Below, piece by piece: positions 991 through 21,110 of a DNA stretch of 64,000 nt; the stretch's first letter is position 1, and each line of letters opens with the position of its first letter. This DNA is from an uncultured Bacteroidota bacterium (GTDB lineage: Bacteria; Bacteroidota; Bacteroidia; Chitinophagales; Chitinophagaceae). The notes under the pieces were generated by a model. The model did not search any database. It was not told the origin of the DNA and worked only from the letters and a program-made list of their open reading frames with translations. The DNA is taken from contig CAIRZD010000130.1 in NCBI GenBank assembly GCA_903882965.1, positions 1-64,000 of the forward strand. The letters are read 5' to 3'. A program made the position numbers and the translations under genes.

Positions 991-3900
991 CCATCACCAA
1001 CGGTTACTACGACATATTCATTGACCGTTGGGAATACGGGCAGTGGGTGTATTCAACCCGCAGTATATGTTACTGTTGTTACTGTTAACCCAGCTCCAGC
1101 AACGGTAGTCGCAAGCGGTACTGGTACTTATTGTGGTAGTACAACGATAACAGGATCTAATGGCGGTGACGGTACTATTTACTTCCAGGGTACCACATCT
1201 GGTGGCACCTCTACTGCAACTGCTGCAACAGCTCAGGTTGTAAGTTCATCAGGAACCTATTATTTTAGGGCTCTTTCAACAAGCGGTTGCTGGGGGCCAC
1301 AAGGTAGTGTGGCGGTAACGATCAACCCATTACCTGCACCTATAGCAGGAACAACCAATGTGTGTGTAAATGCCACAACCAGCTTAACTGACGCTACATC
1401 CGGTGGTGTATGGGCTATCAGTAACCCACTTATTGCTACAGTTGGTTCAGGATCCGGTACTGTAACCGGTGTTTCAGCCGGAATTGCGACAGTCACTTAT
1501 ACACTTATTAGTACAGGCTGTAATGCTACTGCCACAATCCTTAGCAGCCCGATAGCAGCGCCTATCAGCGGTACAACTATTGTATGTACAGGTAGTACAA
1601 CTGCTTTAACCGACAATACAAGTGGTGGTAACTGGACCAGCAGTGATGCAACAATTGCCAGTGTAAGTTTATACACAGGTATTGTTACAGGTGTCGCATC
1701 CGGTACTGTAACCATTACCTATGGGCTTGCTTCAGGTTGTTTACAAACAACTGCTGTCACTGTTAATGCAACATCGGCAGCTATAACGGGCGTTTCAAGT
1801 GTTTGTAACGGATCTACAACCACATTAACGGATGCTTCCGGAACAGGTATCTGGACTTCCGGTAACTTAGCCGTGGCAACCATCGGCTCTTCGTCGGGCA
1901 TTGTTACAGCGATTGCTCCGGGTTCTGCAACTATTTCTTATGCAATAGCTTCAGGCTGTATATTGACCCGTACGGTAAGTGTTAATGCTTTACCTGCTGC
2001 TGTTACGGTAAGTGGTAGTGGAACCTACTGTGCCACTACTACTATAACCGCTGCAAATGGCGGAGATGGTACTATTTATTATCAGGGCACTACTTCCGGG
2101 GGTACATCTACGGCTACGCCATCAACAGCTCAGGTAATAACTTCATCCGGAACTTATTATTTCAGGGCGTTATCCGCATCAGGGTGCTGGGGCGCAGAAG
2201 GCAGCACAACAGTAACGATCAACCCATTACCGGGAGCTATTAGCGGAACTGGGACTGTTTGCGCAGGCTCATCAACAAGCCTCAGCGATATTACGGCCGG
2301 AGGCACATGGAGCAGCAGCAATGCAAATGCAACAGTAGACGGATCTGGTAATGTTACCGGCGTGTACGCTGGTACTGCAGCGATTACTTATACAATACCT
2401 ACCGGCTGTATCTCTGCAACCATTGTTACGGTTAATGCGATATCAAATATTTCAGGCGCAACTGCTGTTTGTGCCGGAGCTGCTACTAATCTAAGTGACC
2501 TGGTTACAGGTGGCACATGGACCAGCAGTAATTCCACTGTTGCTGGCATCGGTTCGGCTTCAGGGTCGGTTTCCGGTTTAACACAGGGCACATCAATCAT
2601 TACCTATACAGCTCCTACTGGCTGTACTACTACTACTACAATAACAGTAAATCCATTACCACTGGCAATTACCGGCACCGGTTATGTTTGTCTCGGATCT
2701 GCAACATCATTAACTGATGCAACAGCAAGCGGGATATGGAGTAGCAGCAATGGAGCTATTGCCACCATAGGTTCTTCCTCTGGTATTGTTACAGCTGCCG
2801 GTTCGGGAACTGCTACAATTACATATTTACTGCCAACAGGTTGTAAAATAACATCTGTTGTAACGGTTAACCCATTACCCGGTGCTATCGCAGGTACAGC
2901 TAATGTATGTGTCGGTTTAACAACATCATTAAGTGACGCATCTGGCGGCGGTACCTGGAGCTCCAGTGATGGCACACTTGCCACCATAGGATCTACCGGT
3001 ATTGTAACCGGTATTGCGGCTGGTACACCCGTAATTACTTATACACTTGCCACAGGGTGCATCACAACTACAATAATTACTGTTAATCCATTAACGGGTA
3101 TAACAGGCTCAAGCCCTGTATGTGTTGGGTCAACACTGAATTTAAACGAGACCACTGCAGGTGGTGCATGGAGCAGCAGTAGCGGCGCTATAGCAACCGT
3201 CGGTTCATCTACAGGTATCGTTACAGGTGTTGCTTCTGGAACAGCTACAATCACTTATTTACTGCCTACAGGTTGTAAATCCACATCTGTTGTAACGGTC
3301 AATCCTTTACCGGTTGCAATTTCCGGCACAGCTTCAGTATGCGTTGGGTTACCCACATCATTAAGTGATGCTACCGGCAGCGGCACCTGGAGCTCTAGTG
3401 ATGGCACACTTGCCACAATAGGCTCTACAGGCATTGTAACCGGAGTAGCTGCCGGTACACCGGTTATTACATACACACTTGGCACAGGTTGCCTGAGAAC
3501 AGTTACAGTTACCGTCAATCCACTGTCTGCTATTACAGGTGCTGGTCAGGTATGTATCGGTTCAACAGTGACCTTAAATGACGCTACCACAGCGGGTACA
3601 TGGAGCAGCAGCAATGGCACTGTCGCTTCGGTAGGGGCATCTACAGGCATTGTTTCAGGTGTAACCTCCGGCACTACTACGATCACATATCTGTTAGCTA
3701 CAGGTTGTAAGTCTACATCTGTGCTCACCGTCAATCCATTACCCGCAGCTATCACAGGCACCGGGAATGTATGTGTCGGGTCTACATTAACCGTTAGCGA
3801 TGCAACCGCCGGCGGCAGCTGGAGCACAAGCGATGTTACCCTCGCTACGATCGGTTCAAATGGTGTTGTAACTGGTGTTGGTTCAGGTATAGTTACCATA

Positions 3901-6900
3901 ACTTACACACTTGGCACTGGTTGTATCAATACCGCATTCGTAACGGTTAACCCTGTTCCATCTGCGATTACCGGAACAACAACGGTATGTGCAGGTTCTG
4001 TAACAGCTTTAAACAATACCGCCACCGGCGGAACCTGGAGCAGCAGCAGTACTGCAACCGCTACTGTTGATGGGTCAGGAAATGTAACCGGTGTTGCAGG
4101 TGGCACCACAGTTATCAGCTACATAATGGCTGCCGGTTGCTATGCTACTACTACAGTAACAGTAAGTACAATACTTCCAATTACAGGTACATTGAGTGCA
4201 TGCATCGGTTCCACTACATCTTTAAATGATGGCACAGGTGGCGGCACATGGAGCAGCAGCAATCCTTCTGTCGGTTCCATTAGTACTGGTGGGATCGTTA
4301 CCGGCATTATCAACGGGTCAACAACTGTATCTTATACATTATCATCCGGTTGTATCCGCACAGCAGTGATCGCAATTAATTCATCACCGGCAGCTATCTC
4401 AGGCCCATCCCCTGCAGTAGTTTGTGTTGGGGCTACAATAACCCTCAGCGATGCCGTAACGGGAGGCACCTGGCACAGCAGTAATGCATCTGTAGCAACG
4501 ATTGGATCTGTTTCAGGCTTGGTAACCGGCCAGCAGGCGGGTACAATTACAGTTGTCTATACAGCTGGTGCGGGCTGCACAGTTTCTAGTGTGGTGACTG
4601 TCAATGCTAATCCGTTACCAATTCAGGGTGCCACTTCAGAATGCTTAGGTACAACTGTATCATTAAGTGATGGTACCTCCGGAGGTACATGGAGTAGCAG
4701 TAACAGTAATGCTTCTATCGACGGATCTGGAAATATCACAGGCGTAACCGTGGGAACCAGTACAACTAGTTATACACTTACTACAGGGTGCTATATTACA
4801 TACCCAAATACAGTATTAAAGAATCCTTCTGCCATCTTTGGTACAGCTTCAGTATGTGTTGGAGCAACAACACAACTTAGCGACTCCACAGCTGTAGCAG
4901 TAAACTGGACAAGCAGTAACGGCTCAATAGCTACTGTGGTAAATTCAGGTGTCGTAACCGGGGTATCTGCCGGTGTCGCAACAATAACTTATAAAATACA
5001 GGCAGGTAGTTGTATCGCAACACAATCTGTAACTGTTAATGCACTGCCGGCTGCTATTTCGGGTAATACACCTGTTTGTGCTGGGTCAACATTAACTTTA
5101 ACCGACGCCGCAGGTAGTGGTACATGGACCAGCAGTAATACTGCTGTCGCAACCGTTGGATCCGGCAGTGGAACAGTAACTGGTATTGTCGGTGGTACTG
5201 CTGTTATATCTTACACTGCATCCGGTGGATGTAGCATAACTGCAACCGTAACTGTTAATCCTATACTTTCTATTTCAGGCATCGGTTATGTATGCTCCGG
5301 TTCATCAGTAACATTAAGTGATGCTACATCAGGCGGCACATGGAGTAGCAGCAATACGGGTGTAGCAACTGTAGGCACATCCGGTGTTGTAACAGGTGTT
5401 GGTGCAGGAGGTACTGTTACTATTACTTATAAGATCACAAGTACAGGTTGTATTGCTACATCAATAATGACTGTAAATGCCGTATCTGCCGCTATCTCAG
5501 GTACGTCATCTGTCTGCACTAATTATACAACAGCACTTACTGATGCCACACCGGGTGGTACCTGGAGCAGCAGTAACGGATCCGTTGCCACTGTAGGGAC
5601 GTCCGGGATTGTTACCGCAAATACGCTATATGTTGCAGGCACAACTACTATTACCTATGCTATAGGTGGCTGCGTCTCTACAAAGGTTGTAACGGTAAAT
5701 ATTACACCATTGCCGGTTCAGGGAGCAACATCAGAATGTATGGGCGCAACTGTATCGTTAAGCGATGCCAATACCGGTGGCACATGGAGCACAAGTAATT
5801 CGAATGCATCTATAAATGGGTCAGGAAATATTACAGCATTAGCTGTGGGTACAAGTACAGTTACTTATACACTTCCTACAGGCTGCTATATTACATATCC
5901 AAATACGATACATCCAAACCCATCGCCAATATTTGGTACCGCTACAGTATGTGCCGGTTCCTTAACAGAGTTGAGTGATTCAACTGCTACTACGGTAAGC
6001 TGGACAAGCAGTAACACTGCTGTCGCTACTGCTGTCAATTCTGGTTGGATAACCGGTGTCTCTGCAGGAACTGCAACGATCACTTATAAAATACTGATAG
6101 GTAATTGTATCACTACCCAGGTTGTAACGGTTAACCCACAACCGGTTGCCATCGCTGGCAATACACCAATTTGTCAGGGTAATACAATAACCTTGAGTGA
6201 TGCTACATCAAGTGGCACATGGAGCAGCACAAATACATTGGTTGCAACAATTGGCTCCACTGGTATTGTAACGAGCGCTGCCGGCGGTACTTCTCTGATA
6301 TCATATACAATAGGTGACGGCTGTGCAAACACCACTATTGTAACTGTCAATTCGATAGCAGCCATTTCAGGCAACACGCCTATATGTACAGGTCAGTCAA
6401 TTACTTTGAGTGATGCAGCAACAGGCGGGTCCTGGAGTTGCAGCAATCTTGCTGTTGGCACCATTGATCCGGTTGCAGGAGTTGTTACACCGGTAAGCAC
6501 CGGCACTGCAACGATTACTTATTTAATGCCTACAGGTTGTAGTGCCACAACGGTCATCACTGTTAATCCTGTCATCTCAGGTGTTACTATTACAGGTTCG
6601 CCTGTTGTATGCTCGGGTGCAACTACAACACTCACTGATGCCACTGCCGGTGGTTCATGGAGTAGTAGTGATGTTACTATTGGTACAGTTGATCCGGCAT
6701 CGGGCATTGTTACCGGTGTTGCGGCAGGAACAGTAAATATTTCTTATTCCATTGGCGTAGGTTGTGTCGCTGCTAATGTGGTGACCATCATCGCATCCCC
6801 TGCCAGCCTTTCTGGTACTAATCTTATTTGCGCTGGTTTAACAACAAGCCTTAGTGATGTAGTGCCTGATGGCACATGGAGCAGCAGTAACGCAGCTATT

Positions 6901-9900
6901 GCTTATGTAAGTGTCTATACCGGATTGGTAACCGGCATAGCTGGTGGTACGGCCAGCATATCTTATACAACACCGAATGGTTGCTTCAATACAGTTGTAG
7001 TAACAGTTAATCCGTTAGTTTCCACTATATCCGGAACTACAACAATATGTATAGGCGGAAACACAAACTTAACTGATGCGTCTTCCGGTGGTACCTGGAG
7101 CAGCAGTGATAATACAATAGCCACTGTTGGGTCCACTGGTATTGTTACCGGGGTAGCAGGCGGCTACGCATCAATTACATATACATTGAGTACAGGCTGT
7201 TCCAATGCCTTCAATGTAGTTGTCAATCCTTATGCCGGTATTATCACAGGCCCGGTAAGTGTAGATGTTGATTCCGTTATCACGCTTGCTGATGCAATAG
7301 GTGGCGGTATATGGACCAGCAGTAATGCTAATGCATCCGTTGATGGCTCCGGTGATGTATCGGGTATCACAGGTGGCACAGCTACTATTTCTTATTCTGT
7401 TACCAATGTTTGCGGTACAGCAGTTGCAACAACAATTCTCACAATTAATGTCGGGCCTGCACAGGTTATAGTATCCGGTGGCGGCTCATATTGTGGTAGT
7501 ACTACCATAACCGCTTCCAACGGTAGTGATGGTACTATCTATTATCAGGGCACTAACCCCGTTGGCACTTCTACACTCACACCATCTGCCTCGCAGGTAA
7601 TTTCATCCTCCGGAACTTATTATTTCAGGGCACAGTCATCTGCCGGAGCTTGGGGAGTTGCAGGAAGTGCTATAGTAACTATTAATCCGGTACCGGCTGC
7701 TATCACAGGTTCACCTGTTGTATGTATTGGGTTATCTACTGCCTTAACTGATGCAACAGCTGGCGGCACCTGGAGCAGCAGTAATGCTAATGCAACAATT
7801 GATGGCTCAGGCAATGTTACCGGCGCCAGCGCAGGCACAACCAATATTACTTATACCTTACCTGCGGGCTGTACTTCAATAACTACAGCTACAGTTAACC
7901 CATTACCATCAGCTATTACCGGTTCTGCAACTGTCTGCTCTGGCCTTACGGCTGTATTAAGCAGTGCTACAAGTGGTGGTACATGGAGTTCTGTATCAAC
8001 CGGTATCGGCACTATCGATCCGTCTTCAGGTACGTTCACTGCTATAGCATCCGGCACAACAACTGTATCTTATATATTACCTACAGGTTGTTATGCAACA
8101 ACTACCGAAACAGTCAACCCACTACCGGCCAACATCACTGGTACAGCAACAGTGTGTAAAGGGCTCACAACAAGTTTAACTGATGCTACATCAGGTGGTA
8201 CATGGACAAGCAGCGATATAACCACTGCCACCGTCGGTTCTACAGGTGTTGTAACAGGTATTGCCGCAAACACTGCTAATATTACTTACACATTACCAAC
8301 AGGATGTATAGCAACAAATACAGTGACCGTTAATGTATTGCCATCAGCGATCACCGGCACTACCAACGTATGCGCTGGTGCTACAACCGGCTTAAGCAAC
8401 AGTACCAGCGGTGGTACATGGAGTTCCGGTTCAACAGGTGTTGGGACAATTGATCCCTCATCAGGCATTGCTACAGGTATATCAGCAGGTACTACTGCCA
8501 TTACCTATACATTGTCTACCGGTTGTATCGCTACTGCCAATATTACAGTCAATGCTTTACCCACATCAGTTTCGACAGGTGGAAGCGGCACATTCTGTGG
8601 CAGTACTACTATAACCGCTTCTAACGGGGGCTCAGGAACGATCTACTTCCAGGGTACTACATCAGGCGGCACTGCTACCACAACTCCTGCTACCTCACAG
8701 GTTGTAAGTACATCCGGTACTTACTATTTCAGGGCGCTGTCATCATCTGGTTGTTGGGGTGCTCAAGGTAGCGTATCAGTTACCATTAACCCTACGCCTT
8801 CAGCCATCACTGGTGCAGCAACCGTATGTTCCGGCACTACAACTGCTTTAACTGATGCTACATCAGGTGGTACCTGGAGCAGCAGTAACGCTAATGCAAC
8901 AGTAGACGGCTCAGGAAATGTTTCCGGTATTACAGCAGGTACAGCAACAATTACATACACACTACCTACAGGATGTGTGACCACATTCCCAATTACAGTC
9001 TATGGTTCCCCATCAGCTATCAATGGTTCACTTAATGTCTGCCTCGGTTCTACTACCAGCTTAAGCAGCAGCACGGCCGGTGGCACATGGGCTTCCGCTT
9101 CTACCGGCATCGCAACGATCGGTTCTATATCAGGTACGACTACTGCAGTATCAGTTGGGTCTGCAGGTATTACTTACACATTATCTACCGGATGTACCGC
9201 TACCGCTAATATCACAGTCAATGCTTTACCGGCAACTGTTATTGCAAGCGGAGGCGGCTCATTCTGCGGCAGTACAACCGTTACTGCTGCTAATGGCGGA
9301 TCCGGTACCATTTATTTCCAGGGTACAACATCCGGCGGTACTTCTACTGCGATACCATCTGCATCACAATTGATAACCACATCTGGTACCTATTACTTCA
9401 GGGCGCAGTCATCATCCGGTTGCTGGGGCACAGAAGGCAGTGTAATAGTTACGATCAATCCATTGCCGGCTGCGATCAACGGCCCTGCAACTGTATGTCT
9501 GGGTTCATCGATTACATTAACTGATGCCACTGCAAGCGGCACATGGTCAAGTAGTAATGGTTCGGTTGCATCTATAGGATCGGCCAGCGGCATTATCACC
9601 ACTGGTTCTGCAGGTACTACCACTATTGCTTATACACTCGGCACAGGTTGTTCTGCTTCTGCTGTGATCACTGTCAATTCATTGCCTGCCTCTGTCAGTG
9701 GTACAACGGCTATATGCCTCGGCACAACAACTGTGTTGACAGATGCTACCTCGGGTGGCACATGGAGCAGCAGCAATATCTATGTTGCAAGTGTGGGTTC
9801 AGCTGGGTTAGTAACCGGCCTCGTATCAGGAAACGCAAATATTACTTATACCGATGTTAATGGTTGTGGCGCGGTTTCTATTATAACAGTAAATCCATTA

Positions 9901-12900
9901 CCATCTGCGATAACAGGCACAACCGCAATATGTATGGGTGCTGCTAACAGCCTTTCTGATGCCACAACCGGTGGCACCTGGGCAAGCAGCACAACAGGTG
10001 TTGCTACTATAGATGGAAGTGGCAATGTTACCACCGTATCAGCCGGTACTTCCAATATAACATATACGCTGCCTACAGGATGTATTGCAACAACAACTAT
10101 TACTGTTAATCCTATATCTGCAATCCTCAATGCATCTGGGGTATGTCTTGGTAATACCATTACTTTAAGCGACGCTACTTCCGGCGGGTCTTGGAGCAGC
10201 AGTAACACTTCAATTGCTGGTATTGGTACATCAGGCATTCTTACAGGCCTGTCAACAGGAACAACTACGATCACTTATACCATGCCTTCCGGTTGCACAG
10301 CTACAACTACCATAACTGTTAATCCGGCGCCTTCGGCCATTACGGGCAATACAATTGTTTGTGTCGGCTTTACATCTGCATTAACTGATGCCGGTGGCGG
10401 TACCTGGACCTCTTCCAACACTTCAATTGCTACTGTTGGATCTGCTTCAGCAGTTGTTACAGGTGTCGGAGCAGGAACTGCCGGTATCACTTATTCGCTC
10501 GCTACAGGTTGCACCGCAACCGTTATCGTAACGGTTACTTCGGTGCCGGGCTCTATCAACGGTGCTACCTCGGTATGTGCAGGTTCGGCTATAACATTAA
10601 CTGATGCAGTTTCCGGAGGCTCATGGAGCAGCAGTAACACTGCTAATGCTTCTGTAGGTTCACTTACCGGTATCGTAACAGGAGTTGGTGGTGGCGTAGC
10701 TACGATCACTTATACAATGGCAGCTGGTTGTTATGTCACATCAGGAATAACTGTAAACGCCATACAACCTATCTTAGGTACACTTAGTGCATGTATTGGG
10801 TCTACAACCAGGTTATCTGATGGTTCTTCTGGCGGTACATGGAGCAGCAGCAACCCTTCTATTGGATCTGTAGGTTCCTCAACTGGCATTGTCGCCGGCA
10901 TTTCGTCTGGTTCGGTTACCATATCTTACACTATACCATCAGGCTGTGTACGTACCGTTTCAGTACAAATTAATGGGTTGCCATCAGCTATCTCAGGTCC
11001 ATCACCAACCGCTGTTTGTATAGGTGGTACAATAACCCTCAGCGATGCCACAACCGGTGGTACCTGGAACAGTAGTAATACATCCGTAGCAACGATAGGA
11101 TCTTCTTCGGGTGTAGTATCCGGCCTGCAGGCAGGTACTATTACAGTCGTCTATACCGCTGGTGCAGGTTGCACGGTTTCTAATGTGGTCACCGTTAATC
11201 CTAATCCATTACCAATCCAGGGCTCCGCTTCAGAATGCTTAGGTACAACCGTATCATTAAGTGATGCCAACTCCGGTGGTACATGGAGCAGCAGCAACAG
11301 CAATGCTTCGATCGACGGGTCTGGAAATATCACAGGCCTTATCGTGGGAACAAGCACAACCACTTATACACTCCCTACAGGCTGTTATATCACATACCCG
11401 AATACGGTCAACAAAAATCCGTCGGCTATATTTGGTACGTTCTCGGTATGTGTGGGCTCAGCAACTCAGTTGAGCGATTCCACAGCTACTTCTGTCAGCT
11501 GGACGAGCAGCAATACTTTAGTTGCTTCGGTTGTTAACTCAGGTACAGTAACCGGGATCGGTGCAGGTACCGCTATCATTACCTATAAGATACTGACCGG
11601 TAGTTGTATAACCACACAAACGGTTACAGTTAATGCGCTTCCGGCAGCAATTACAGGAAACACGCCTGTATGCGCTGGGTCAACAATAACATTAACAGAT
11701 GTCGCAGGTGCTGGTACTTGGACCAGCAGTAATGCAGCAATCGCATCTGTTGGTACTGGATTAGGTGTTGTAACAGGCGTTGCCGGTGGTACCGCTGTTA
11801 TTAGTTATAAACCAAGCGGCGGCTGTACCGTAAATACTACGGTAACGGTCAACCCGATATTTGCTATCTCCGGTGGTACAAATGCCTGTGTCGGAAGTAC
11901 CACTTCACTGTCAGATGCCACAACAGGTGGAACTTGGGCAAGTTCTAACACAAGTATTGCTACCGTAGCATCCACTGGTATTGTCACAGGTGTAAGCGCA
12001 GGATCGGCTACTATTACTTATACACTTGCCACAGGCTGTACACGAACAACAAGTGTAAATATTGGATCAATAGCTCCGATCACAGGCACACTTTCAGTTT
12101 GTACTAATTACACCACAGCACTGACCGACGTTACTTCAGGCGGCACATGGAGTAGTACTAATGCTTCAATAGCATCAGTAAACGCATCGGGTCTTGTAAC
12201 TGCCAATACGCTTTATAATGCAGGCACCGCTACTATATCATATGCAATAGGTACTTGTGCCGCAACTAAGGTGGTTACAGTAAATAGTACGCCGCAACCT
12301 ATTCATGGCGCTACTTCTGAATGTATGGGTACTACCGTCTCATTAAGCGATGCTATAGCAGGTGGCACATGGAGCAGCAGCAATGCTAATGCCTCGATTG
12401 ATGGTTCCGGAAATATTACTGGTGTTGCCGTTGGAACCAGCACAACAAGCTATACAGTGTCTACTGGTTGTTACATCACTTACCCCAATACAGTTCTTGC
12501 TGATCCTACACCTATCCTCGGTACATTCACTGTATGTACAGGATCATTCACCCTGTTAACGGATGCTACTTCAAACGCAACGTCCTGGACGAGCAGCAAT
12601 ACTTTAGTTGCTACAGCTGCCAATTCAGGCGCCGTAACCGGAGTTGCCGCAGGTACTGCAATAATTACATACACCATACATTCCGGTTGTTCTATCACAC
12701 AAACAGTTACTGTTAATCCTACACCGGGTGCCGGCACAATTTCCGGCACTATGACAGTAGCTGTTGGCGCAAATGTTACCCTTACAGATGCTGTCACAGG
12801 TGGCACATGGACTTCCAGCAATATCCCCGTAGCAGTTATTGGTTCTGCTTCCGGTACAGTAACAGGTAATAACCCGGGCAACGCAACTATCTCTTACCAT

Positions 12901-13746
12901 GTCACTAATACATATGGTTGCGGTGCTTACGCCACTAGCCTCTTCACTGTAACAGCTACTGCGCCACATAGTATTGCCGCAAACGATGTTACAATATGCA
13001 TCGGGTCCAGCACCACACTCAATGATGTTGCTTCCGGTGGCACATGGAGCAGCGGCAATGATAATATCGCTATAGTCGATGCTAATGGCATGGTAACCGG
13101 TTTATCTGCTGGCAATGCTGCAATAAGCTATACGCTTGTCAGCGGCTTCGGAACTTCAATTACTACTATACCTGTTGTTGTTGTACCGCTGCCTGGCGCT
13201 GTCACCATCGCTGCAAATCCTGGTACGGTCATCAGTAAGGGCGAATCGCTTATATTATCAGCAACAGCAGAAAATGCCGGCCCTGCCCCCGTATTCCAAT
13301 GGCTCATAAACAATGTGCCCGTATCTGGCGCTACTTCGTCTGTGTTTGTAAACAACAGCTTATCTGATAATGATTCTGTTACTTGCAATGTCATTAGCTC
13401 TGGCGCTTGCAGCGGGTACACAGTGTCTGCAACAGTTGGTATATCTGTAGGTAGTTTAGGTGTTCACAGCAACCTTGCTACTGTCAGTGATGTCAGGATA
13501 TTGCCAAACCCTAATAAAGGTGCATTTACACTTAAGGGCACATTAGGTATTACTACTGACGAAGAGGTTACGGTTGAAGTAACAGACATACTCGGCCAGG
13601 TTGTGTACAGGAACAAGGCTACCGCTCAAAATGGCGTGGTAAATGAGAATATATCGCTCAGCTCAATGTTAGCAAACGGTATGTACATCCTCAACTTGCG
13701 CAGCGATACAATTAATAAAGTATTCCATTTTGTGATCGAGAAATAG
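1..13746 (+). CDS. Giant Ig-like (BIG2-type) repeat protein with T9SS sorting domain, 5' partial
   Basis: The reading frame is open from base 1 (AAQSPVM matches the internal repeat), so the ATG at 19 given in the ORF track is not the real start and the N-terminus lies outside the window. At least 4581 residues are visible. In order: about five PKD-like units of 81 aa (to about nt 1090); about 50 Ig-like modules of 65-75 aa with the pattern ITG..VC.G...L.DAT.GGTWSSSN..VATVGS..G.VTG...GT..ITYT...GC....VTVNPLP; five interspersed modules containing GTYYFRA; one PKD-like unit; and a C-terminal type A sorting domain (about 13489-13743; ILPNPNKGAF, then LGQVVY, ending HFVIEK). Most Ig-like modules carry two Cys (VC and GC). 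By family knowledge such proteins cross the outer membrane by T9SS and act as surface or released adhesins; the ligand is unknown. The codon pattern is intact with no frameshift seen. Confidence 0.93.
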   Translation, partial: AAQSPVMTPTATTTYSLTLSASGSGCSPSTVYTTTVTVNTAPTSTGATNSGPICNGGTVTLNDNSGNATAWSWTGSDGSTSAAQSPVMTPTATTTYSLTLSASGSGCSPSTVYTTTVTVNTAPTSTGATNSGPICNGGSVTLNDNSSNATAWSWTGSDGSTSAAQSPVMTPTATTTYSLTLSASGSGCSPSTIYTTTVTVNTAPTSTGATNSGPICNGGSVTLNDNSSNATAWSWTGSDGSTSAAQSPVMTPTATTTYSLTLGASGSGCNPSTVYTTTVTVNTAPTSTGATNSGPICNGSTVTLYDNSSNANVWSWTGSDGFTSTLQSPSPSPTVTTTYSLTVGNTGSGCIQPAVYVTVVTVNPAPATVVASGTGTYCGSTTITGSNGGDGTIYFQGTTSGGTSTATAATAQVVSSSGTYYFRALSTSGCWGPQGSVAVTINPLPAPIAGTTNVCVNATTSLTDATSGGVWAISNPLIATVGSGSGTVTGVSAGIATVTYTLISTGCNATATILSSPIAAPISGTTIVCTGSTTALTDNTSGGNWTSSDATIASVSLYTGIVTGVASGTVTITYGLASGCLQTTAVTVNATSAAITGVSSVCNGSTTTLTDASGTGIWTSGNLAVATIGSSSGIVTAIAPGSATISYAIASGCILTRTVSVNALPAAVTVSGSGTYCATTTITAANGGDGTIYYQGTTSGGTSTATPSTAQVITSSGTYYFRALSASGCWGAEGSTTVTINPLPGAISGTGTVCAGSSTSLSDITAGGTWSSSNANATVDGSGNVTGVYAGTAAITYTIPTGCISATIVTVNAISNISGATAVCAGAATNLSDLVTGGTWTSSNSTVAGIGSASGSVSGLTQGTSIITYTAPTGCTTTTTITVNPLPLAITGTGYVCLGSATSLTDATASGIWSSSNGAIATIGSSSGIVTAAGSGTATITYLLPTGCKITSVVTVNPLPGAIAGTANVCVGLTTSLSDASGGGTWSSSDGTLATIGSTGIVTGIAAGTPVITYTLATGCITTTIITVNPLTGITGSSPVCVGSTLNLNETTAGGAWSSSSGAIATVGSSTGIVTGVASGTATITYLLPTGCKSTSVVTVNPLPVAISGTASVCVGLPTSLSDATGSGTWSSSDGTLATIGSTGIVTGVAAGTPVITYTLGTGCLRTVTVTVNPLSAITGAGQVCIGSTVTLNDATTAGTWSSSNGTVASVGASTGIVSGVTSGTTTITYLLATGCKSTSVLTVNPLPAAITGTGNVCVGSTLTVSDATAGGSWSTSDVTLATIGSNGVVTGVGSGIVTITYTLGTGCINTAFVTVNPVPSAITGTTTVCAGSVTALNNTATGGTWSSSSTATATVDGSGNVTGVAGGTTVISYIMAAGCYATTTVTVSTILPITGTLSACIGSTTSLNDGTGGGTWSSSNPSVGSISTGGIVTGIINGSTTVSYTLSSGCIRTAVIAINSSPAAISGPSPAVVCVGATITLSDAVTGGTWHSSNASVATIGSVSGLVTGQQAGTITVVYTAGAGCTVSSVVTVNANPLPIQGATSECLGTTVSLSDGTSGGTWSSSNSNASIDGSGNITGVTVGTSTTSYTLTTGCYITYPNTVLKNPSAIFGTASVCVGATTQLSDSTAVAVNWTSSNGSIATVVNSGVVTGVSAGVATITYKIQAGSCIATQSVTVNALPAAISGNTPVCAGSTLTLTDAAGSGTWTSSNTAVATVGSGSGTVTGIVGGTAVISYTASGGCSITATVTVNPILSISGIGYVCSGSSVTLSDATSGGTWSSSNTGVATVGTSGVVTGVGAGGTVTITYKITSTGCIATSIMTVNAVSAAISGTSSVCTNYTTALTDATPGGTWSSSNGSVATVGTSGIVTANTLYVAGTTTITYAIGGCVSTKVVTVNITPLPVQGATSECMGATVSLSDANTGGTWSTSNSNASINGSGNITALAVGTSTVTYTLPTGCYITYPNTIHPNPSPIFGTATVCAGSLTELSDSTATTVSWTSSNTAVATAVNSGWITGVSAGTATITYKILIGNCITTQVVTVNPQPVAIAGNTPICQGNTITLSDATSSGTWSSTNTLVATIGSTGIVTSAAGGTSLISYTIGDGCANTTIVTVNSIAAISGNTPICTGQSITLSDAATGGSWSCSNLAVGTIDPVAGVVTPVSTGTATITYLMPTGCSATTVITVNPVISGVTITGSPVVCSGATTTLTDATAGGSWSSSDVTIGTVDPASGIVTGVAAGTVNISYSIGVGCVAANVVTIIASPASLSGTNLICAGLTTSLSDVVPDGTWSSSNAAIAYVSVYTGLVTGIAGGTASISYTTPNGCFNTVVVTVNPLVSTISGTTTICIGGNTNLTDASSGGTWSSSDNTIATVGSTGIVTGVAGGYASITYTLSTGCSNAFNVVVNPYAGIITGPVSVDVDSVITLADAIGGGIWTSSNANASVDGSGDVSGITGGTATISYSVTNVCGTAVATTILTINVGPAQVIVSGGGSYCGSTTITASNGSDGTIYYQGTNPVGTSTLTPSASQVISSSGTYYFRAQSSAGAWGVAGSAIVTINPVPAAITGSPVVCIGLSTALTDATAGGTWSSSNANATIDGSGNVTGASAGTTNITYTLPAGCTSITTATVNPLPSAITGSATVCSGLTAVLSSATSGGTWSSVSTGIGTIDPSSGTFTAIASGTTTVSYILPTGCYATTTETVNPLPANITGTATVCKGLTTSLTDATSGGTWTSSDITTATVGSTGVVTGIAANTANITYTLPTGCIATNTVTVNVLPSAITGTTNVCAGATTGLSNSTSGGTWSSGSTGVGTIDPSSGIATGISAGTTAITYTLSTGCIATANITVNALPTSVSTGGSGTFCGSTTITASNGGSGTIYFQGTTSGGTATTTPATSQVVSTSGTYYFRALSSSGCWGAQGSVSVTINPTPSAITGAATVCSGTTTALTDATSGGTWSSSNANATVDGSGNVSGITAGTATITYTLPTGCVTTFPITVYGSPSAINGSLNVCLGSTTSLSSSTAGGTWASASTGIATIGSISGTTTAVSVGSAGITYTLSTGCTATANITVNALPATVIASGGGSFCGSTTVTAANGGSGTIYFQGTTSGGTSTAIPSASQLITTSGTYYFRAQSSSGCWGTEGSVIVTINPLPAAINGPATVCLGSSITLTDATASGTWSSSNGSVASIGSASGIITTGSAGTTTIAYTLGTGCSASAVITVNSLPASVSGTTAICLGTTTVLTDATSGGTWSSSNIYVASVGSAGLVTGLVSGNANITYTDVNGCGAVSIITVNPLPSAITGTTAICMGAANSLSDATTGGTWASSTTGVATIDGSGNVTTVSAGTSNITYTLPTGCIATTTITVNPISAILNASGVCLGNTITLSDATSGGSWSSSNTSIAGIGTSGILTGLSTGTTTITYTMPSGCTATTTITVNPAPSAITGNTIVCVGFTSALTDAGGGTWTSSNTSIATVGSASAVVTGVGAGTAGITYSLATGCTATVIVTVTSVPGSINGATSVCAGSAITLTDAVSGGSWSSSNTANASVGSLTGIVTGVGGGVATITYTMAAGCYVTSGITVNAIQPILGTLSACIGSTTRLSDGSSGGTWSSSNPSIGSVGSSTGIVAGISSGSVTISYTIPSGCVRTVSVQINGLPSAISGPSPTAVCIGGTITLSDATTGGTWNSSNTSVATIGSSSGVVSGLQAGTITVVYTAGAGCTVSNVVTVNPNPLPIQGSASECLGTTVSLSDANSGGTWSSSNSNASIDGSGNITGLIVGTSTTTYTLPTGCYITYPNTVNKNPSAIFGTFSVCVGSATQLSDSTATSVSWTSSNTLVASVVNSGTVTGIGAGTAIITYKILTGSCITTQTVTVNALPAAITGNTPVCAGSTITLTDVAGAGTWTSSNAAIASVGTGLGVVTGVAGGTAVISYKPSGGCTVNTTVTVNPIFAISGGTNACVGSTTSLSDATTGGTWASSNTSIATVASTGIVTGVSAGSATITYTLATGCTRTTSVNIGSIAPITGTLSVCTNYTTALTDVTSGGTWSSTNASIASVNASGLVTANTLYNAGTATISYAIGTCAATKVVTVNSTPQPIHGATSECMGTTVSLSDAIAGGTWSSSNANASIDGSGNITGVAVGTSTTSYTVSTGCYITYPNTVLADPTPILGTFTVCTGSFTLLTDATSNATSWTSSNTLVATAANSGAVTGVAAGTAIITYTIHSGCSITQTVTVNPTPGAGTISGTMTVAVGANVTLTDAVTGGTWTSSNIPVAVIGSASGTVTGNNPGNATISYHVTNTYGCGAYATSLFTVTATAPHSIAANDVTICIGSSTTLNDVASGGTWSSGNDNIAIVDANGMVTGLSAGNAAISYTLVSGFGTSITTIPVVVVPLPGAVTIAANPGTVISKGESLILSATAENAGPAPVFQWLINNVPVSGATSSVFVNNSLSDNDSVTCNVISSGACSGYTVSATVGISVGSLGVHSNLATVSDVRILPNPNKGAFTLKGTLGITTDEEVTVEVTDILGQVVYRNKATAQNGVVNENISLSSMLANGMYILNLRSDTINKVFHFVIEK
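1104..9460 (+). repeat. Five dispersed GTYYFRA modules inside the giant Ig-like protein
   Basis: A module of about 75 aa occurs near 1104-1328, 2006-2224, 7468-7686, 8569-8790 and 9238-9460. Its signature is YCGSTTIT..NGG.GTIYFQGTTSGGT, then SGTYYFRA.S..GCWG..GS..VTINP. It differs from the Ig-like modules and always replaces one or sits between them. The third copy has AWG in place of CWG and so lacks one Cys. A distant relative (YCAGTSGATIGLNGS) sits in the 28864-31002 protein. Confidence 0.85.
4000..6140 (+). repeat. Segmental duplication, copy A (about 10-11 Ig-like modules)
   Basis: This stretch and 10590-12725 carry the same modules in the same order. The landmarks GTLSACIGSTT, ISGPSP, QG..SECLGTTVSLSD, CYITYPNT, FGT..VCVG, VCTNYTTALTD and VTANTLY recur at a constant offset. 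The offset is 6591-6594 bp up to about 5400 and 6585 bp after a 9-bp (3-aa) indel in one module. Within the copy the SEC...CYITYPNT...FGT pair itself occurs twice. Confidence 0.9.
10590..12725 (+). repeat. Segmental duplication, copy B
   Basis: This is the colinear partner of copy A at 4000-6140. Protein similarity is high throughout but the DNA has diverged at many third positions, so the duplication is old relative to the 243-bp array at the left edge. Confidence 0.9.
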
Positions 13747-13845: not shown

Positions 13846-14736
13846 CTATACAGACTCCTTCTTTTTTTCATTATAGAGAATTTTTATCAGGCCGTCGGCA
13901 AGGCCTATTTTGGGCACATAGATCTCATCAGCAAGCGCCCAGCGCATTATAGAGATGTAGATTTGCAATGCAGGTACAATTACGTCCGCCCTGTCTTCCC
14001 TGAACTGGTATAGATGTTTGCGTTCGTCAAGAGAGGTATAGCTCAGTTCTTTATAATAATCTTTCAGCAGGTCAAGCGTAAGTGGCCTTCCTTCTTTCCG
14101 TTTAGACATCGAGAATATCTTGTTGATATTTCCCCCGGTGCCTATAGCTTCCAGTGGCTGGTAATCCCGCGCGTATGTTTTTATGTACCATTTCATATGC
14201 TCCCACTGCTCATCGGCAACTTTGTTGTGCAGCAATCTTATAGTGCCTATGTTAAATGATTCTTTAAAAATAGTATGGTTTTGGGAGTAGAGTGTTATCT
14301 CCGTACTCCCGCCGCCTACATCTATATACAGGTAAGATTTGTTATCGCTGAGCTTTTCCGCAATATGGGTTTCATAAATGATGTTGGCTTCTTCCTGCCC
14401 GGTAATGATATCTATTTTCATCCCCGTTTCGGAGTAGATTTCCTCCAGTATTTTCTTGCCATTGGTTGCATCGCGCATAGCTGAGGTCGCGCAGGCTTTA
14501 AATGCTTCCACGTTATAGATGTTCATTAAAAGCTTGTAGGCCTTTATTGTTTCTATAAGTTTTTTCTTCTTTTCATCAGATACGGTTCCCTTATCAAACA
14601 CATCAAAACCCAGGCGTAGCGGTATACGTAACAACGTTAGCTTTGTAAAATCTACTGTGCCATCTACATAAACTGAGGTTTCACATATCAAAAGCCGCGC
14701 AGCATTAGACCCAATATCAATAGCGGCAAGTATCAC
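13846..14736 (-). CDS. ppx: Ppx/GppA family phosphatase (exopolyphosphatase)
   Basis: This 296-aa protein has the ASKHA-fold signatures of the Ppx/GppA family: the phosphate-1 motif AIDIGSNAARLL at the N-terminus and the phosphate-2 motif YIDVGGGSTEI near residue 140. The family hydrolyses terminal phosphates of polyphosphate or (p)ppGpp pentaphosphate in the cytoplasm. It matches the short two-domain form, without the C-terminal HD-like domain of E. coli Ppx. The start is GTG and overlaps the ppk1 stop by 4 bp (GTGA), so the pair is probably translationally coupled. Coupling to ppk1 favours a polyphosphate substrate, but GppA activity cannot be excluded. Confidence 0.9.
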   Translation of the reverse strand: MILAAIDIGSNAARLLICETSVYVDGTVDFTKLTLLRIPLRLGFDVFDKGTVSDEKKKKLIETIKAYKLLMNIYNVEAFKACATSAMRDATNGKKILEEIYSETGMKIDIITGQEEANIIYETHIAEKLSDNKSYLYIDVGGGSTEITLYSQNHTIFKESFNIGTIRLLHNKVADEQWEHMKWYIKTYARDYQPLEAIGTGGNINKIFSMSKRKEGRPLTLDLLKDYYKELSYTSLDERKHLYQFREDRADVIVPALQIYISIMRWALADEIYVPKIGLADGLIKILYNEKKKESV

Positions 14737-16811
14737 TTTTTGTACGTTTTATTTTGTAAATATTTATAAATAGCTTCTTGCGAACGAACTTTGGGTACAT
14801 GCTCATCTCTGTGCACATACTGGTTGCTTTGTTCATTATCTAATATACGACCTTTAACATTCTCCGCAAGCTGGATATTTAAAATATCTATTAATTCCTG
14901 TTGTATTTCTTTGTTATATATTGGGCAGGCGGCCTCAATCCTGTGGTCCAGGTTGCGCACCATCCAGTCTGCCGACGATATAAATACTTTAGGGTCTTTC
15001 TCATTCCCAAACACAAAAACCCGTGCGTGCTCCAGGTAATCATCAATGATACTGATCGCTTTAAAGGTGCCTTTAAAGGATTTTTGTTCTGTATATGCGC
15101 AGCAAATACCGCGTATCACCATTTGTATATCCACCCCCGCTTTGGCCGCCGCATATAGTTTTTCTATCAGCACATTATCTACAAGGCTATTTAGCTTTAT
15201 GATTACTGATCCTGGCTTTTTCTTTTTTGCCAGCCTTATTTCTTTATCTATTAATGCCAGCATCGACTTCCGCATTGTCAGCGGCGATATAGGCAATGTC
15301 TTACAGTTCCTTAGGTAACTGGCCTTTTTAATAGGGTTTTCGAGGTAATCAAATATACGGTTCACATCAGCCAGGATAGTTCTGTTGGTCGTTAGCAGGC
15401 AGTGGTCGCCATAATAGCGTGCTGTGTTCTCATTAAGATTGCCGGTAGATATAAATCCGTATGTTCGGGTATGGTTAAATTCTCTCTTTTTTATTACACA
15501 TATCTTGGCATGCACTTTCATATTATGCAGCCCCAGTACCACTTTTACACCTTCTTCTTCCAGTTGCGCTTTCCACCTCATGTTTGCTTCTTCATCAAAT
15601 CGGGCACGTAGTTCCAGCACTACTGTTACCTCTTTGCCGTTTCGCACAGCATTGATAAGGGCATTGATTATTTTTGAGTTCTTGGCTACTCTGTAACATG
15701 TGATTCGTATACTGTGCACAAACGGATCGATCGCTGCTTCTCGCAGCAGGTCTATTATAGAATCAAACGAATGATAGGGTAGGTGCAGCATTACATCCCT
15801 TTTCTCTATTACATCCATAATTCGGCACGGTTGCTTCAGCAACGGGTGCACAAACGGGTCATGGCGGGGTGGGGTATCCTGGAATATTGATGCAGGGAAA
15901 TCAATAAAATCTTTAAAGTTGTGTATCCGCCCACCCGGTATAAGGTTATCTTTTTTACTAAGGCCCAGTCGTTTTGTAAGGTAATTTAATAGTAAGTGGT
16001 CAATATGCCGGTCAAATACGAAACGCGTAGTGCGCCCGTGTTTTCGGTTTTTTAATCCCTTCTCCAGCTCTGCTATAAGATTTGTATTTACATCATTATC
16101 TATTTCCAGTTCCGCATCCTTCGTCACCTTAATAATGTAACCCATAAACCGGTTAAACCCGAATGGTGCAAACAGGCTTGGCAGGTTCTGCCGTATTATA
16201 TCTTCAAGCAGTATCACATCGGTCTCTCCCTTTTCAGATGGCATTATCACAAACCTGGGCAATACCTTTGTAGGTATCTCTATCAGTGCGTACCGTTGAA
16301 TCATAGAAGCTTTGGTGCTCCCCAATACACACGCAAGGTAGATCGACTTGTCGCGCAACAGCGGGATGTGCGGTATCGTCTCTATCATCAACGGTATGAT
16401 CTGCGTCCGCACCTTATCTTCAAAAAACTTCGATACAAATTCCTTTTGCTCTTTCGAAAGCTGCTTTTCATTCTTTATGTATATCCGTTTCTTTTCCAGC
16501 TCAGTGATGATGTTTGAGTAGGTCTCGTCAAATTCTTCCTGCTGCGTTATTACCGTCTGTTGTATCTTTTTTAGTATCTTGTCCGGGTTGGCTTCCAGGT
16601 GCATTTTGGCCGCCTTGCCCAGTAGCACCATTTTATTCAGCGCAGCTACACGTACCCTGAAAAACTCATCTAGGTTATTAGAAAATATCCCCAGAAAGCG
16701 AAGCCGGTCATGAATATGATTCTTCGGGTCATTTGCCTCCTGTAATACACGCCCGTTAAAAGCCAGCCAACTAATATCCCGTACTATGGTTTGTTTTGTT
16801 GTTTTCAGCAT
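14733..16811 (-). CDS. ppk1: Polyphosphate kinase 1
   Basis: At 692 aa this is full length for PPK1, which reversibly transfers the gamma-phosphate of ATP to polyphosphate. The N-terminal part has DISWLAFNGRVLQEA and NNLDEFFRVR, typical of the family's N and head domains. The C-terminal phospholipase-D-like halves carry MKVHAKICVI (the His equivalent to the autophosphorylated E. coli His435), STGNLNENTARYYGDH, and NLDHRIEAACP (equivalent to His592). It is the first gene of a two-gene operon with ppx. An AT-rich leader lies upstream. Confidence 0.95.
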   Translation of the reverse strand: MLKTTKQTIVRDISWLAFNGRVLQEANDPKNHIHDRLRFLGIFSNNLDEFFRVRVAALNKMVLLGKAAKMHLEANPDKILKKIQQTVITQQEEFDETYSNIITELEKKRIYIKNEKQLSKEQKEFVSKFFEDKVRTQIIPLMIETIPHIPLLRDKSIYLACVLGSTKASMIQRYALIEIPTKVLPRFVIMPSEKGETDVILLEDIIRQNLPSLFAPFGFNRFMGYIIKVTKDAELEIDNDVNTNLIAELEKGLKNRKHGRTTRFVFDRHIDHLLLNYLTKRLGLSKKDNLIPGGRIHNFKDFIDFPASIFQDTPPRHDPFVHPLLKQPCRIMDVIEKRDVMLHLPYHSFDSIIDLLREAAIDPFVHSIRITCYRVAKNSKIINALINAVRNGKEVTVVLELRARFDEEANMRWKAQLEEEGVKVVLGLHNMKVHAKICVIKKREFNHTRTYGFISTGNLNENTARYYGDHCLLTTNRTILADVNRIFDYLENPIKKASYLRNCKTLPISPLTMRKSMLALIDKEIRLAKKKKPGSVIIKLNSLVDNVLIEKLYAAAKAGVDIQMVIRGICCAYTEQKSFKGTFKAISIIDDYLEHARVFVFGNEKDPKVFISSADWMVRNLDHRIEAACPIYNKEIQQELIDILNIQLAENVKGRILDNEQSNQYVHRDEHVPKVRSQEAIYKYLQNKTYKK

Positions 16812-18279: not shown

Positions 18280-19002
18280 TTGGTAAACGCTTGTTTTTTA
18301 GAGCGTTATATTTCCTAGTCCAAATTACGTTCCAATCATTGTTAAAGAAATTATAAACCGTTTTATTCATATTATTTCGGCATAAACAATATATGCCCCG
18401 GAGGGGCTATCTGTTTGTAGAAATCATCAGAAAGCATGACTCGCATGCCGTCGGTATGCATCCCTGCTTTTTATGCGTTTTTAAATCCAATTGGTATCGC
18501 ATAGCATTTACACCACTTTCATTAAATCAATATCAACACTAATTCATCACTATTTTTGCTATTAATATTTGCGCTCTCCCCCCCAACAACGTAATCAACC
18601 TCGTTTACTCATTTTTAAAACCAATGAAAGTAGCCATGGCAAATGATTTCATAAAAGGTGTATACACTTCCCGGCATATATCCCACCCTTGTATGAAATT
18701 TACACCATGATACTTTTATCTCAAAAACATTTACTCGAAAATGGCATTCTGTTATCAGGCAATTATAGCATCCCGTGTATACACAAATTGCAGCCATTCA
18801 CACACAATTCATCCAATGTCCCACAACGCCCTATAATTGCAACAAGACTGCGACATTTTCGTGATATTATCTGCAATAAAGCATTGATTATAAATAAATT
18901 AATAAAAAACCCACCAATAAGTGTGATATTTCTCATGAATGCATTCGTGCTTCTTTCACGTTACACCTAACAATAGTATATTGCATAGTAGCTATAAAAA
19001 TC
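18280..19002. other. Intergenic region of 723 bp with one short palindromic element
   Basis: The region is AT-rich and carries no convincing gene. The ORF at 18689-18970 has no family-like composition, and its antisense partner is no better. A palindromic repeat-like element sits at 18391-18470. The region separates divergent units, so promoters for both are expected. Confidence 0.5.
18391..18470. repeat. Short palindromic interspersed-repeat-like element
   Basis: It contains ATGCCCCGGAGGGGCTAT, then CTGTTTGTAGAAA, then GCATGCCGTCGGTATGC, two small hairpins joined by a TTTGTAGAAA linker. The arrangement resembles short non-coding repeats I recall from Sphingobacteriales-type genomes, usually reading GCCCCGTAGGGGC and TGTTTGTAGAAA. 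Only one copy is seen in this window, so its repeat nature is inferred from memory. Confidence 0.45.
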
Positions 19003-20115
19003 TTGGGATTGCACACAAAAAAAGTAAATAAGCATTTATTTGAAGACGATAAAAAACATGCAGCGCAGGCCATCAGGGATGCGCAGTTTATAGCATTTGC
19101 TCCATATGTATTTCAGGCGTCGGTCATATTACGGGACGCAGGTATCCTAAAATATATAGAAGAATCCCGGCTCGAAGGCCGCAGTATACAGGAAGTCGCA
19201 GACACGGTGAAGTTACCTTACTACGGTACCCGGGTACTCATGGAAGCTGCACTCGGAATAGGCCTTTTATATAGAAAGGACACAAGGTTCTTCCTTGCCA
19301 AGACCGGTCATGTTTTTATTAACCACCCCATGGCCCGCATCAATACAGATTTTATGCGCGATGTCTGTTACGATGGTGCCGCTGATCTTGCGGCCTCTAT
19401 AGCAGATGGTAAACCAAGGGGGCTGAAGCACTTGGGTGGCGGTGAAACTATATACGAAGGGTTATCAAGCATGGCAGAACCCGCAAAGAGTAGTTGGTTT
19501 GCCTTTGATCATTATTATTCAGATCTGGCCTTCCCGGAAGTATTGCCTTTCGTATTCGGGCATACACCGGTTAGAATTCTGGATATTGGGGCTAATACGG
19601 GTAAATGGGCAATAGCATGTATGGCCTACGATAAAAATGTAACGCTAGGCCTGCTGGACCTCGAAGGGCAGCTTAACGAAGCCAAAATAAATATTGAGAC
19701 GGCTGGTTATAGTGATAGAGTAACATACCATGCGCATGACATCCTCGATAATAAAACTGCGTTGCCTGCAGGCTATGATCTGATATTTATGAGCCAGTTT
19801 TTAAATTGCTTTACAGATAAACAGATTATCGCGATTTTAAAAAAATGCCACGATGTGTTGCCTGATGAAGGCCGCATCATTATCAATGAAACGTTTTGGA
19901 ATTGCCAGCAATACGAAGCAGGTGCTTTCAGCTTGCAGATGGCTTCTTTATATTTTACTACAATGGCTAATGGCAACAGCCAGATGTATGATAGCGAGGT
20001 GTATTTAAAAGTTATAGATGAAACGGGGTTTGAGGTGGTAAGCCAGCACGATCATATTGGGCTTAGCCATTCTATACTGGAGCTTAAAAAGAAAAAATTT
20101 AGTGATGGTAATTAA
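19003..20115 (+). CDS. SAM-dependent methyltransferase, O-methyltransferase type with N-terminal winged helix
   Basis: The protein has 370 aa. Residues about 25-110 look like the dimerisation/winged-helix domain of plant-type O-methyltransferases (a helical stretch with ILRDAGILKYI and QEVADTVKLPYYGTRVLMEAALGIGLL). Residues about 180-350 carry the Rossmann SAM site (VRILDIGANTGKWAIA, then LGLLDLEGQ and LIFMSQFLNCF). It probably methylates a small molecule. No ATG exists near the N-terminus, so the TTG at 19003 is the best start. Its stop overlaps the ketosynthase-like gene by 11 bp, so the two are co-translated. The combination suggests polyketide/aryl-polyene-type metabolism. Confidence 0.8.
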   Translation: MGLHTKKVNKHLFEDDKKHAAQAIRDAQFIAFAPYVFQASVILRDAGILKYIEESRLEGRSIQEVADTVKLPYYGTRVLMEAALGIGLLYRKDTRFFLAKTGHVFINHPMARINTDFMRDVCYDGAADLAASIADGKPRGLKHLGGGETIYEGLSSMAEPAKSSWFAFDHYYSDLAFPEVLPFVFGHTPVRILDIGANTGKWAIACMAYDKNVTLGLLDLEGQLNEAKINIETAGYSDRVTYHAHDILDNKTALPAGYDLIFMSQFLNCFTDKQIIAILKKCHDVLPDEGRIIINETFWNCQQYEAGAFSLQMASLYFTTMANGNSQMYDSEVYLKVIDETGFEVVSQHDHIGLSHSILELKKKKFSDGN

Positions 20116-20713
20116 TCAGTGGGTAGTAATTAATAATGCACAGATCAGTAGTAATGTAGCTACTGGATTGCAAGGTATACTGCCCGGGCAGGAAATACTT
20201 TCGCCGGAAATAGTTTATACTGCAATGCAGAGCAGCTACCCAAAATTTTATAAGATGGATAAACTGTGTAAGTGGGCGTGGGTCGCAGCAGAATATTTGT
20301 TCGGAGAGAATAAGGGGCTTTATAAAGATATTGATAAGAACCGTATTGGCGTGTGTCTTACCACATCGCATGGTTGCCTGGATGTAGATAAGCGCTACCT
20401 TGATGGTATAGCGCTGCCAAGCCCGGCGTTGTTTGTCTATACATTGCCTAATATAATGCTTGGAGAGCTATGCATACGGCATGGATTTAAGGGGGAGCAA
20501 CAATGTATGGTCAGTGAAAAATTTGATGCTGAAGAATTATTTTTCACAGTAAAAGGCTTATTGGAGCGGGGTATGGAAGCTTGTCTTTGTGGCTGGGTAG
20601 ATGTGTTTGGTGAGCAATATGATATATGCCTGTTTTGGGTAACAAAAAAAGGTAAAGGGTATAATTTCACAGCGGATATGATGCAAGGGTTATACGCAGG
20701 TAAAGGTAGCTGA
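20105..20713 (+). CDS. Beta-ketoacyl-synthase-like protein, active-site Cys absent (chain-length-factor-like)
   Basis: The 202-aa product begins at ATG 20105, not the upstream 20057 start of the track, and overlaps the methyltransferase stop by 11 bp. It resembles the N-terminal half of ketosynthases (Ketoacyl-synt_2-like): RIGVCLTTSHGCLDVDKRYL, then PNIMLGELCIRHGFKGEQ and LLERGMEACLCGWVDV, which align with the N..aG.lairhG..Gp...A....i..G..d.alvGg.dv core. At the position of the catalytic Cys (TACSSS in active enzymes) it reads SEKFDAEEL, so condensation activity is unlikely. In flexirubin/aryl-polyene clusters, small Cys-less ketosynthase partners act as chain-length factors. Here no full ketosynthase, acyl carrier or dehydratase is adjacent. 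Confidence 0.7.
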   Translation: MVINQWVVINNAQISSNVATGLQGILPGQEILSPEIVYTAMQSSYPKFYKMDKLCKWAWVAAEYLFGENKGLYKDIDKNRIGVCLTTSHGCLDVDKRYLDGIALPSPALFVYTLPNIMLGELCIRHGFKGEQQCMVSEKFDAEELFFTVKGLLERGMEACLCGWVDVFGEQYDICLFWVTKKGKGYNFTADMMQGLYAGKGS

Positions 20714-20726
20714 GTAAAACAGTAAA

Positions 20727-21110
20727 ATGGAACAAGTAAGACTTGATAAATACTTGTGGGCAATACGGATATTTAAAACACGTACACAGGCAGCCACGGC
20801 AATAGATGGTGGAAAAGTGAAGTGGAACGGAGCCTCTGTAAAACCTGCGCGAACCGTAAATATAGGGGATGTATATTATATAAAGACCCCGGCCCGTAAC
20901 TGGCTGATAGAAGTGACAGGACTATTACATAACAGGCTTGGGTATGCGGATGCATTGCGGCATTATAAAGACCTAACGCCTGAAGAAGAAAAACAACAAA
21001 AACCGCATGAGGGCACTAGCTTTAATACAGGAAAGCGGCAAAGTAAAACAGGTCACCCCACTAAAAAACAGCGGCGTGACCTGGAAGATTTTTTAGAATC
21101 AGATCAATAA
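20727..21110 (+). CDS. hslR: S4-domain RNA-binding protein, Hsp15/HslR-like
   Basis: The 127-aa protein opens with an S4 RNA-binding domain (VRLDKYLWAIRIFKTRTQAATAIDGGKVKWNG, then VKPARTVNIGDVYYI), typical of Hsp15, which in E. coli binds 50S subunits carrying nascent chains after heat shock. The tail is Lys/Glu/Gln-rich and basic, as in the family. It follows the ketosynthase-like gene by 13 bp on the same strand, so co-transcription is likely even though the functions differ. Its 3' end overlaps the convergent lipoprotein gene by 7 bp. Confidence 0.88.
   Translation: MEQVRLDKYLWAIRIFKTRTQAATAIDGGKVKWNGASVKPARTVNIGDVYYIKTPARNWLIEVTGLLHNRLGYADALRHYKDLTPEEEKQQKPHEGTSFNTGKRQSKTGHPTKKQRRDLEDFLESDQ

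Follow-up and report, generated by a model that had tools for sequence, protein, structure and literature searches.

The flexirubin gene cluster of Chitinophaga pinensis runs from flxA to flxY, and the text of its description lists FlxC, FlxI, FlxL, FlxN and FlxO as putative ketosynthases, while the feeding experiments given there traced a methyl group to methionine with the loss of one ring deuterium (PMC3992019). A second point of reference is ApeC, a half-size chain-length factor that has just one thiolase fold and is part of the aryl-polyene ApeO:ApeC complex (PMC8358021; PDB 6QSP and 7F28). Here, a pair of overlapping genes in the window (the whole 64,000-nucleotide stretch analysed, from an uncultured member of Chitinophagaceae) was compared with these systems. 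It is highly probable that this pair, flxJ'-flxL, belongs to the pathway for flexirubin (an orange aryl-polyene ester pigment) and was relocated; the genes of this pathway are dispersed over the chromosome in a Flavipsychrobacter/Taibaiella-like branch of the family. FlxL would be chain-length-factor-like, and flxK displaced.

Re-reading of the sequence confirmed both open reading frames of the original prediction together with their coordinates and 11-bp overlap (Table 1). When all reference flx proteins were compared with the window, only flxJ' and flxL were matched and no other flx gene was found there, in agreement with the remark that no polyketide cluster is visible around them. Both are real genes, as they are conserved in dozens of genomes and are under purifying selection: the frames are open in all six genomes with the pair, and dN/dS between sister genomes with measurable dS was 0.05-0.10 for flxJ' and 0.12-0.19 for flxL (synonymous sites are saturated in comparisons with the window sequence itself, and these values come from sister-sister pairs). 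The start codon of flxJ is TTG or GTG at the same position in most relatives. The overlap, in turn, is specific to the source genome and not conserved: in its five sisters the two genes are spaced by +18, +6, +90, +1, and +370 bp. The two products had been proposed to be made together; translational coupling is indeed possible in the source genome, but the overlap is absent even from its closest relatives.

Table 1. Features of the window and contigs of the source genome carrying flexirubin genes
Feature	Position	Strand	Description
ppx-ppk	13846..16811	-	polyphosphate genes; left flank conserved in L050 and L053; not pathway
TAGTATATTGCA	18974..18985	+	conserved element of 12 bases, just upstream of flxJ'
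flxJ'	19003..20115	+	SAM-dependent methyltransferase of the FlxJ family; native copy (clade 1); 370 aa from a TTG start
Stop-start overlap of flxJ' and flxL	20105..20115	+	11 bp
flxL	20105..20713	+	ketosynthase-like protein, half-size and Cys-less; 202 aa from an ATG start
hslR	20727..21110	+	Hsp15-like, S4-domain; conserved right flank; not pathway
Contig C194			flxK-flxJ-flxB-flxA and divergent flxC-flxD-flxE-flxP-flxQ-flxR
Contig C275			flxF-flxI
Contig C437			flxM and divergent flxN-flxO
Contig C415			flxY
Contig C118			darB and possible darA

The hslR neighbour is also present in loci L050, L053, and L063, and further off in L054, L061, and L065. Elsewhere in the window, two giant open reading frames likely encode secreted or surface proteins, one of 4575 aa (19-13746) with many Ig-like (Big_2) repeats and the other of 3388 aa (43195-53361) with FG-GAP/TIG repeats. 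Among 240 loci, exact copies of the element TAGTATATTGCA were confined to the sequence just before flxJ in the window and in L050, L051, L052, and L054 (further matches were repeat samples of such places), while a match with one mismatch is in itself nothing unusual in 64 kb; the element may be a candidate promoter or operator of flxJ'-flxL.

The first product had been called a methyltransferase, which is borne out by a full-length match to the NCBIfam model NF053543 (FlxJ_fam_MTase; positions 3-352 of 352, E = 2.1e-129, 431 bits). Since this score lies below the equivalog cut-off of 560, the protein is filed as a FlxJ-family homologue and not as a certified equivalog; the cut-off is reached in none of 249 family genomes, including those with complete flexirubin clusters (557 in G030). 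The closest solved structure is the SAM-dependent methyltransferase 3dp7, clearly homologous over the entire length (E = 6.8e-91), whereas SibL, which acts in another pathway, is only a distant relative (E = 1e-21). In the FlxJ' of all six genomes, Asp268 of the SQFLDCF motif is replaced by Asn (other FlxJ have Asp in 72 of 73 and Ala in the remaining one) and V226E and S307G are likewise present, while the window copy additionally carries W147G and D300N, both at sites that are nearly invariant. The FlxJ of L074 (7544-8659), which has Ala in this motif, sits on a very long branch. Altogether, changes in one or more of the six FlxJ' affect 8 of 79 otherwise invariant columns, compared with 3 for the second FlxJ of these genomes. 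FlxJ' is a retained native copy that, because of the Asp to Asn change in an otherwise invariant motif, may be redundant, diverging or altered in role.

The second product had been described as half a ketosynthase without the catalytic Cys, having SEKFDAEEL at the place of the catalytic motif, and alignment with FabF agrees, as KG..SEKFDAEE stands against KG..TACATATN with Lys139 at the position of the Cys. A family profile built from 40 FlxL homologues matched FabF at E = 1.4e-5; against the chain-length factors for ishigamide and actinorhodin the E-values were 0.005 and 0.025, respectively. The window FlxL alone gave only weak matches to FabF and PF00109 (E = 0.047 for PF00109), and PF00109 was matched weakly by 13 of the 40 homologues; Pfam by itself cannot identify FlxL. 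A predicted structure unlike ketosynthases had been named as grounds for abandoning the assignment, but the AlphaFold model (pLDDT 86.8, pTM 0.85) has a ketosynthase-like fold, with Foldseek probabilities of 1.00 against PDB ketosynthases and chain-length factors at TM-scores of only 0.44-0.59. The like-sized targets were the ApeC chains of 6QSP (6qsp_B) and 7F28 (7f28_A/C). ApeC and FlxL are both half-size, single-thiolase-fold relatives of ketosynthases in an aryl-polyene pathway, although no sequence relation between them was detectable in profile comparison. FlxL spans the N-terminal ketosynthase half only; as an active beta-ketoacyl synthase has the Cys and a C-terminal half with two His, a protein with Lys at the Cys position and no C-terminal half is therefore not one. 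A chain-length factor (KS-beta) is a Cys-less ketosynthase relative that pairs with a ketosynthase as a heterodimer; of this definition, alignment and predicted structure cover the Cys-less fold. Among the homologues, the blocks YPKFxKMDxLCKWAW and SPALFVYTLPNIMLGEICIRHGFKGEQ are strongly conserved, and FlxL from each of the six genomes retains 28 of 28 invariant positions. The window copy is the only FlxL found in the source genome, so that the window supplies this protein.

Where relatives carry a complete cluster, its genes are arranged as A, B, C, D, E, F, .., H, I, J, K, L, M, N, O, P, Q, and the small protein takes the place of L. In Flavihumibacter and other Chitinophagaceae flxL comes after flxJ-flxK and is followed by genes for an acyl carrier protein (ACP) and for two ketosynthases, the second of them Cys-less. 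This order corresponds to flxA-flxY as given in the text on C. pinensis, and flx letters were mapped to genes from that text, NCBIfam names and gene order (PMC3992019). In complete clusters the homologues occupy one position, between flxI/J/K and flxM/N/O. This position, the size of about 200 aa and the missing Cys agree with FlxL of C. pinensis, listed as a putative beta-ketoacyl synthase (PMC3992019). On position and sequence, the small protein is a homologue of the flexirubin-cluster FlxL and, together with the FlxJ model match, this upholds the link to aryl-polyene/flexirubin clusters made in the original prediction. Compared with the clustered gene of C. pinensis (PMC3992019), the flxL of the window is not part of a cluster but stands next to ppk and hslR, and flxK is gone from between flxJ and flxL. 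Homologues always found inside complete polyketide clusters had been named as a refutation of the original prediction; they often are, but not always. Over the 249 family genomes, FlxL and FlxJ occurred together in 65 (about 21 expected if independent), FlxL only in 11, FlxJ only in 3, and neither in 170, a count that leaves out four weak ketosynthase matches. Within the genus of the window, FlxL, FlxJ, and FlxC are all present in one relative and all absent from two others with near-complete genomes. FlxL-like genes were also seen on large plasmids of two other Bacteroidota, Aureispira (NZ_AP026868.1) and Persicobacter (NZ_AP025298.1). A plasmid or mobile origin of the pair was considered and rejected, the only plasmid matches being two that are distant and non-mobilizable, and so was a defence system, with no match for FlxL and only a weak, partial PADLOC match for the methyltransferase.

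The source genome (a 508-contig assembly, 95% complete) has much of the flexirubin gene set on other contigs, according to a search that covered the set apart from FlxG, FlxH, FlxS and the exporter genes. FlxA (854.6 bits, cut-off 700), FlxY (642.5 bits, cut-off 520), and DarB (570.3 bits, cut-off 550) all pass their curated cut-offs, and these three together mark the flexirubin pathway as present, with its genes spread over six contigs instead of lying in a single contiguous cluster. The possibility that C194 is a contaminant contig was rejected, and it is assigned to the source genome because five sister genomes have a FlxC with 88-94% identity to the one it carries. The flx dispersal is not an assembly artefact, as flx genes also lie far apart in a one-contig genome (G172; flxC at 0.19 Mb, flxJKLNO at 0.35 Mb, other ketosynthase genes at 1.2 and 2.3 Mb). 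No published account of dispersed flexirubin genes in Chitinophagaceae was found in the open-access literature. In the source genome no canonical flxN-flxO was seen, only the divergent set, whose ACP, ketosynthase and Cys-less ketosynthase genes lie at 5141-7835 of L013 (C437) with 44-47% identity to canonical FlxN; such a divergent set also accompanies flexirubin clusters, as a second set, in L136, L138, and L142. The possible DarA is a 308-aa protein beside DarB (L015 on C118, 1057-1983) without an NCBIfam match at 1e-5.

With much of the pathway in the same genome, and with the presence and absence of FlxL and FlxJ following the pathway, the pair is not the orphan fragment that it had been suspected to be, and on present evidence the same two observations turn against the other suggestion, a two-gene system with another purpose. 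In its sharpest form, FlxJ' and FlxL would have left the pigment pathway for a new role, such as methylating another acyl-ACP-bound substrate. The changes at positions 268, 226, and 307 in all six genomes would fit this, as would the excess of altered invariant columns over the second FlxJ despite purifying selection; FlxL, however, is without such changes and is the sole copy in a genome in which the pathway is otherwise present, and we regard a departure from the pathway as very unlikely. A further variant, in which the clade, having gained a second flxJ-flxK, re-purposed FlxJ' (D268N, V226E, S307G) together with FlxL, either for a differently methylated aryl polyene or with FlxJ' as a non-catalytic partner of FlxL, is unlikely. 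The pathway itself is known; what is unusual is its dispersed arrangement, with a history of transfer and loss.

That history can be read from gene order and phylogeny. Many relatives have flxJ-K-L-N-O blocks, and in the loci that share the right flank of the window (L054, L061, L063, L065) hslR comes after flxJ-K-L, either immediately or behind an insertion. In relatives, members of the FlxJ family (NF053543) adjoin flxL via flxK; flxK is absent and flxJ adjoins flxL directly in six genomes (the source genome and L050-L053 and L055), and no flxK remnant was found between flxJ' and flxL. Among 17 genomes, a second FlxJ was present in exactly those six, all with the flxK-less pair, and where resolved its gene lies beside flxK, flxA, and flxB. 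In the FlxJ tree the window copy falls in clade 1 (36 members, this lineage) and the second FlxJ in clade 2 (canonical clusters), both with full support, and the FlxK tree agrees in placing FlxK in the canonical clade 2. The window copy differs from the FlxJ of the flexirubin cluster in its deep native clade, its D268N change, and the presence of a second genomic copy. Because of the FlxJ and FlxK trees and the synteny, a canonical flxJ-flxK block was most likely gained and the native flxK lost: in an ancestor, a second flxJ-flxK of the canonical type would have arrived together with flxA-flxB, and the native flxK would then have disappeared from between flxJ and flxL, an order of gain and loss that we infer. 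Two further loci, L076 and L081, have adjoining flxJ-flxL without flxK and a single FlxJ, pointing to independent loss, so that flxK left this position at least twice.

Such a history could also leave the pair as a decaying remnant, on its way to loss after the acquired block took over, as flxK is already lost, a second FlxJ exists, and the window FlxJ' carries W147G and D300N. Decay is nevertheless most unlikely, given open frames in six of six genomes, sister dN/dS values of 0.05-0.19, the conserved upstream element, and the lack of a second FlxL. Under the preferred reading, a relocated part of the flexirubin pathway, FlxL would still be needed because the genome has no second copy.

In this pathway, FlxJ-type enzymes would methylate the aryl ring of flexirubin with the methyl group that comes from methionine, a role suggested by the published feeding data and by the family. 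FlxL is most likely a chain-length-factor-like subunit of an aryl-polyene ketosynthase, i.e., a non-catalytic half-ketosynthase that would assist a full-length partner in polyene elongation on the acyl carrier protein. This partner is probably FlxI, the best candidate, because its best solved match is ApeO and flxI adjoins flxL in loci without flxJ-K. FlxN, however, outscores FlxI in comparison with ApeO, and the flexirubin protein that resembles ApeC in sequence is FlxO rather than FlxL. FlxN:FlxO may consequently be the true counterpart of ApeO:ApeC, with FlxL an additional subunit. That FlxL serves another ketosynthase (FlxN type), or acts as a scaffold or an additional subunit instead of as the partner of FlxI, is somewhat less likely than not; this alternative concerns the mechanism of FlxL only and is compatible with everything else proposed for the pair. 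The position of flxN-flxO after flxL in many loci speaks for it, along with the likenesses to ApeO and ApeC just given, while a Cys-less FlxO already stands beside flxN, and the sub-clade of the window kept FlxL and FlxI but apparently not canonical flxN-flxO.

Cluster-based genome mining would miss or misname a scattered flexirubin set such as this one, with a sole-copy part beside ppk. The clade amounts to a natural experiment in which flxK was displaced by a transferred copy and its neighbour flxL was not, and it opens to experiment the question of which ketosynthase is served by the half-size FlxL in flexirubin assembly.
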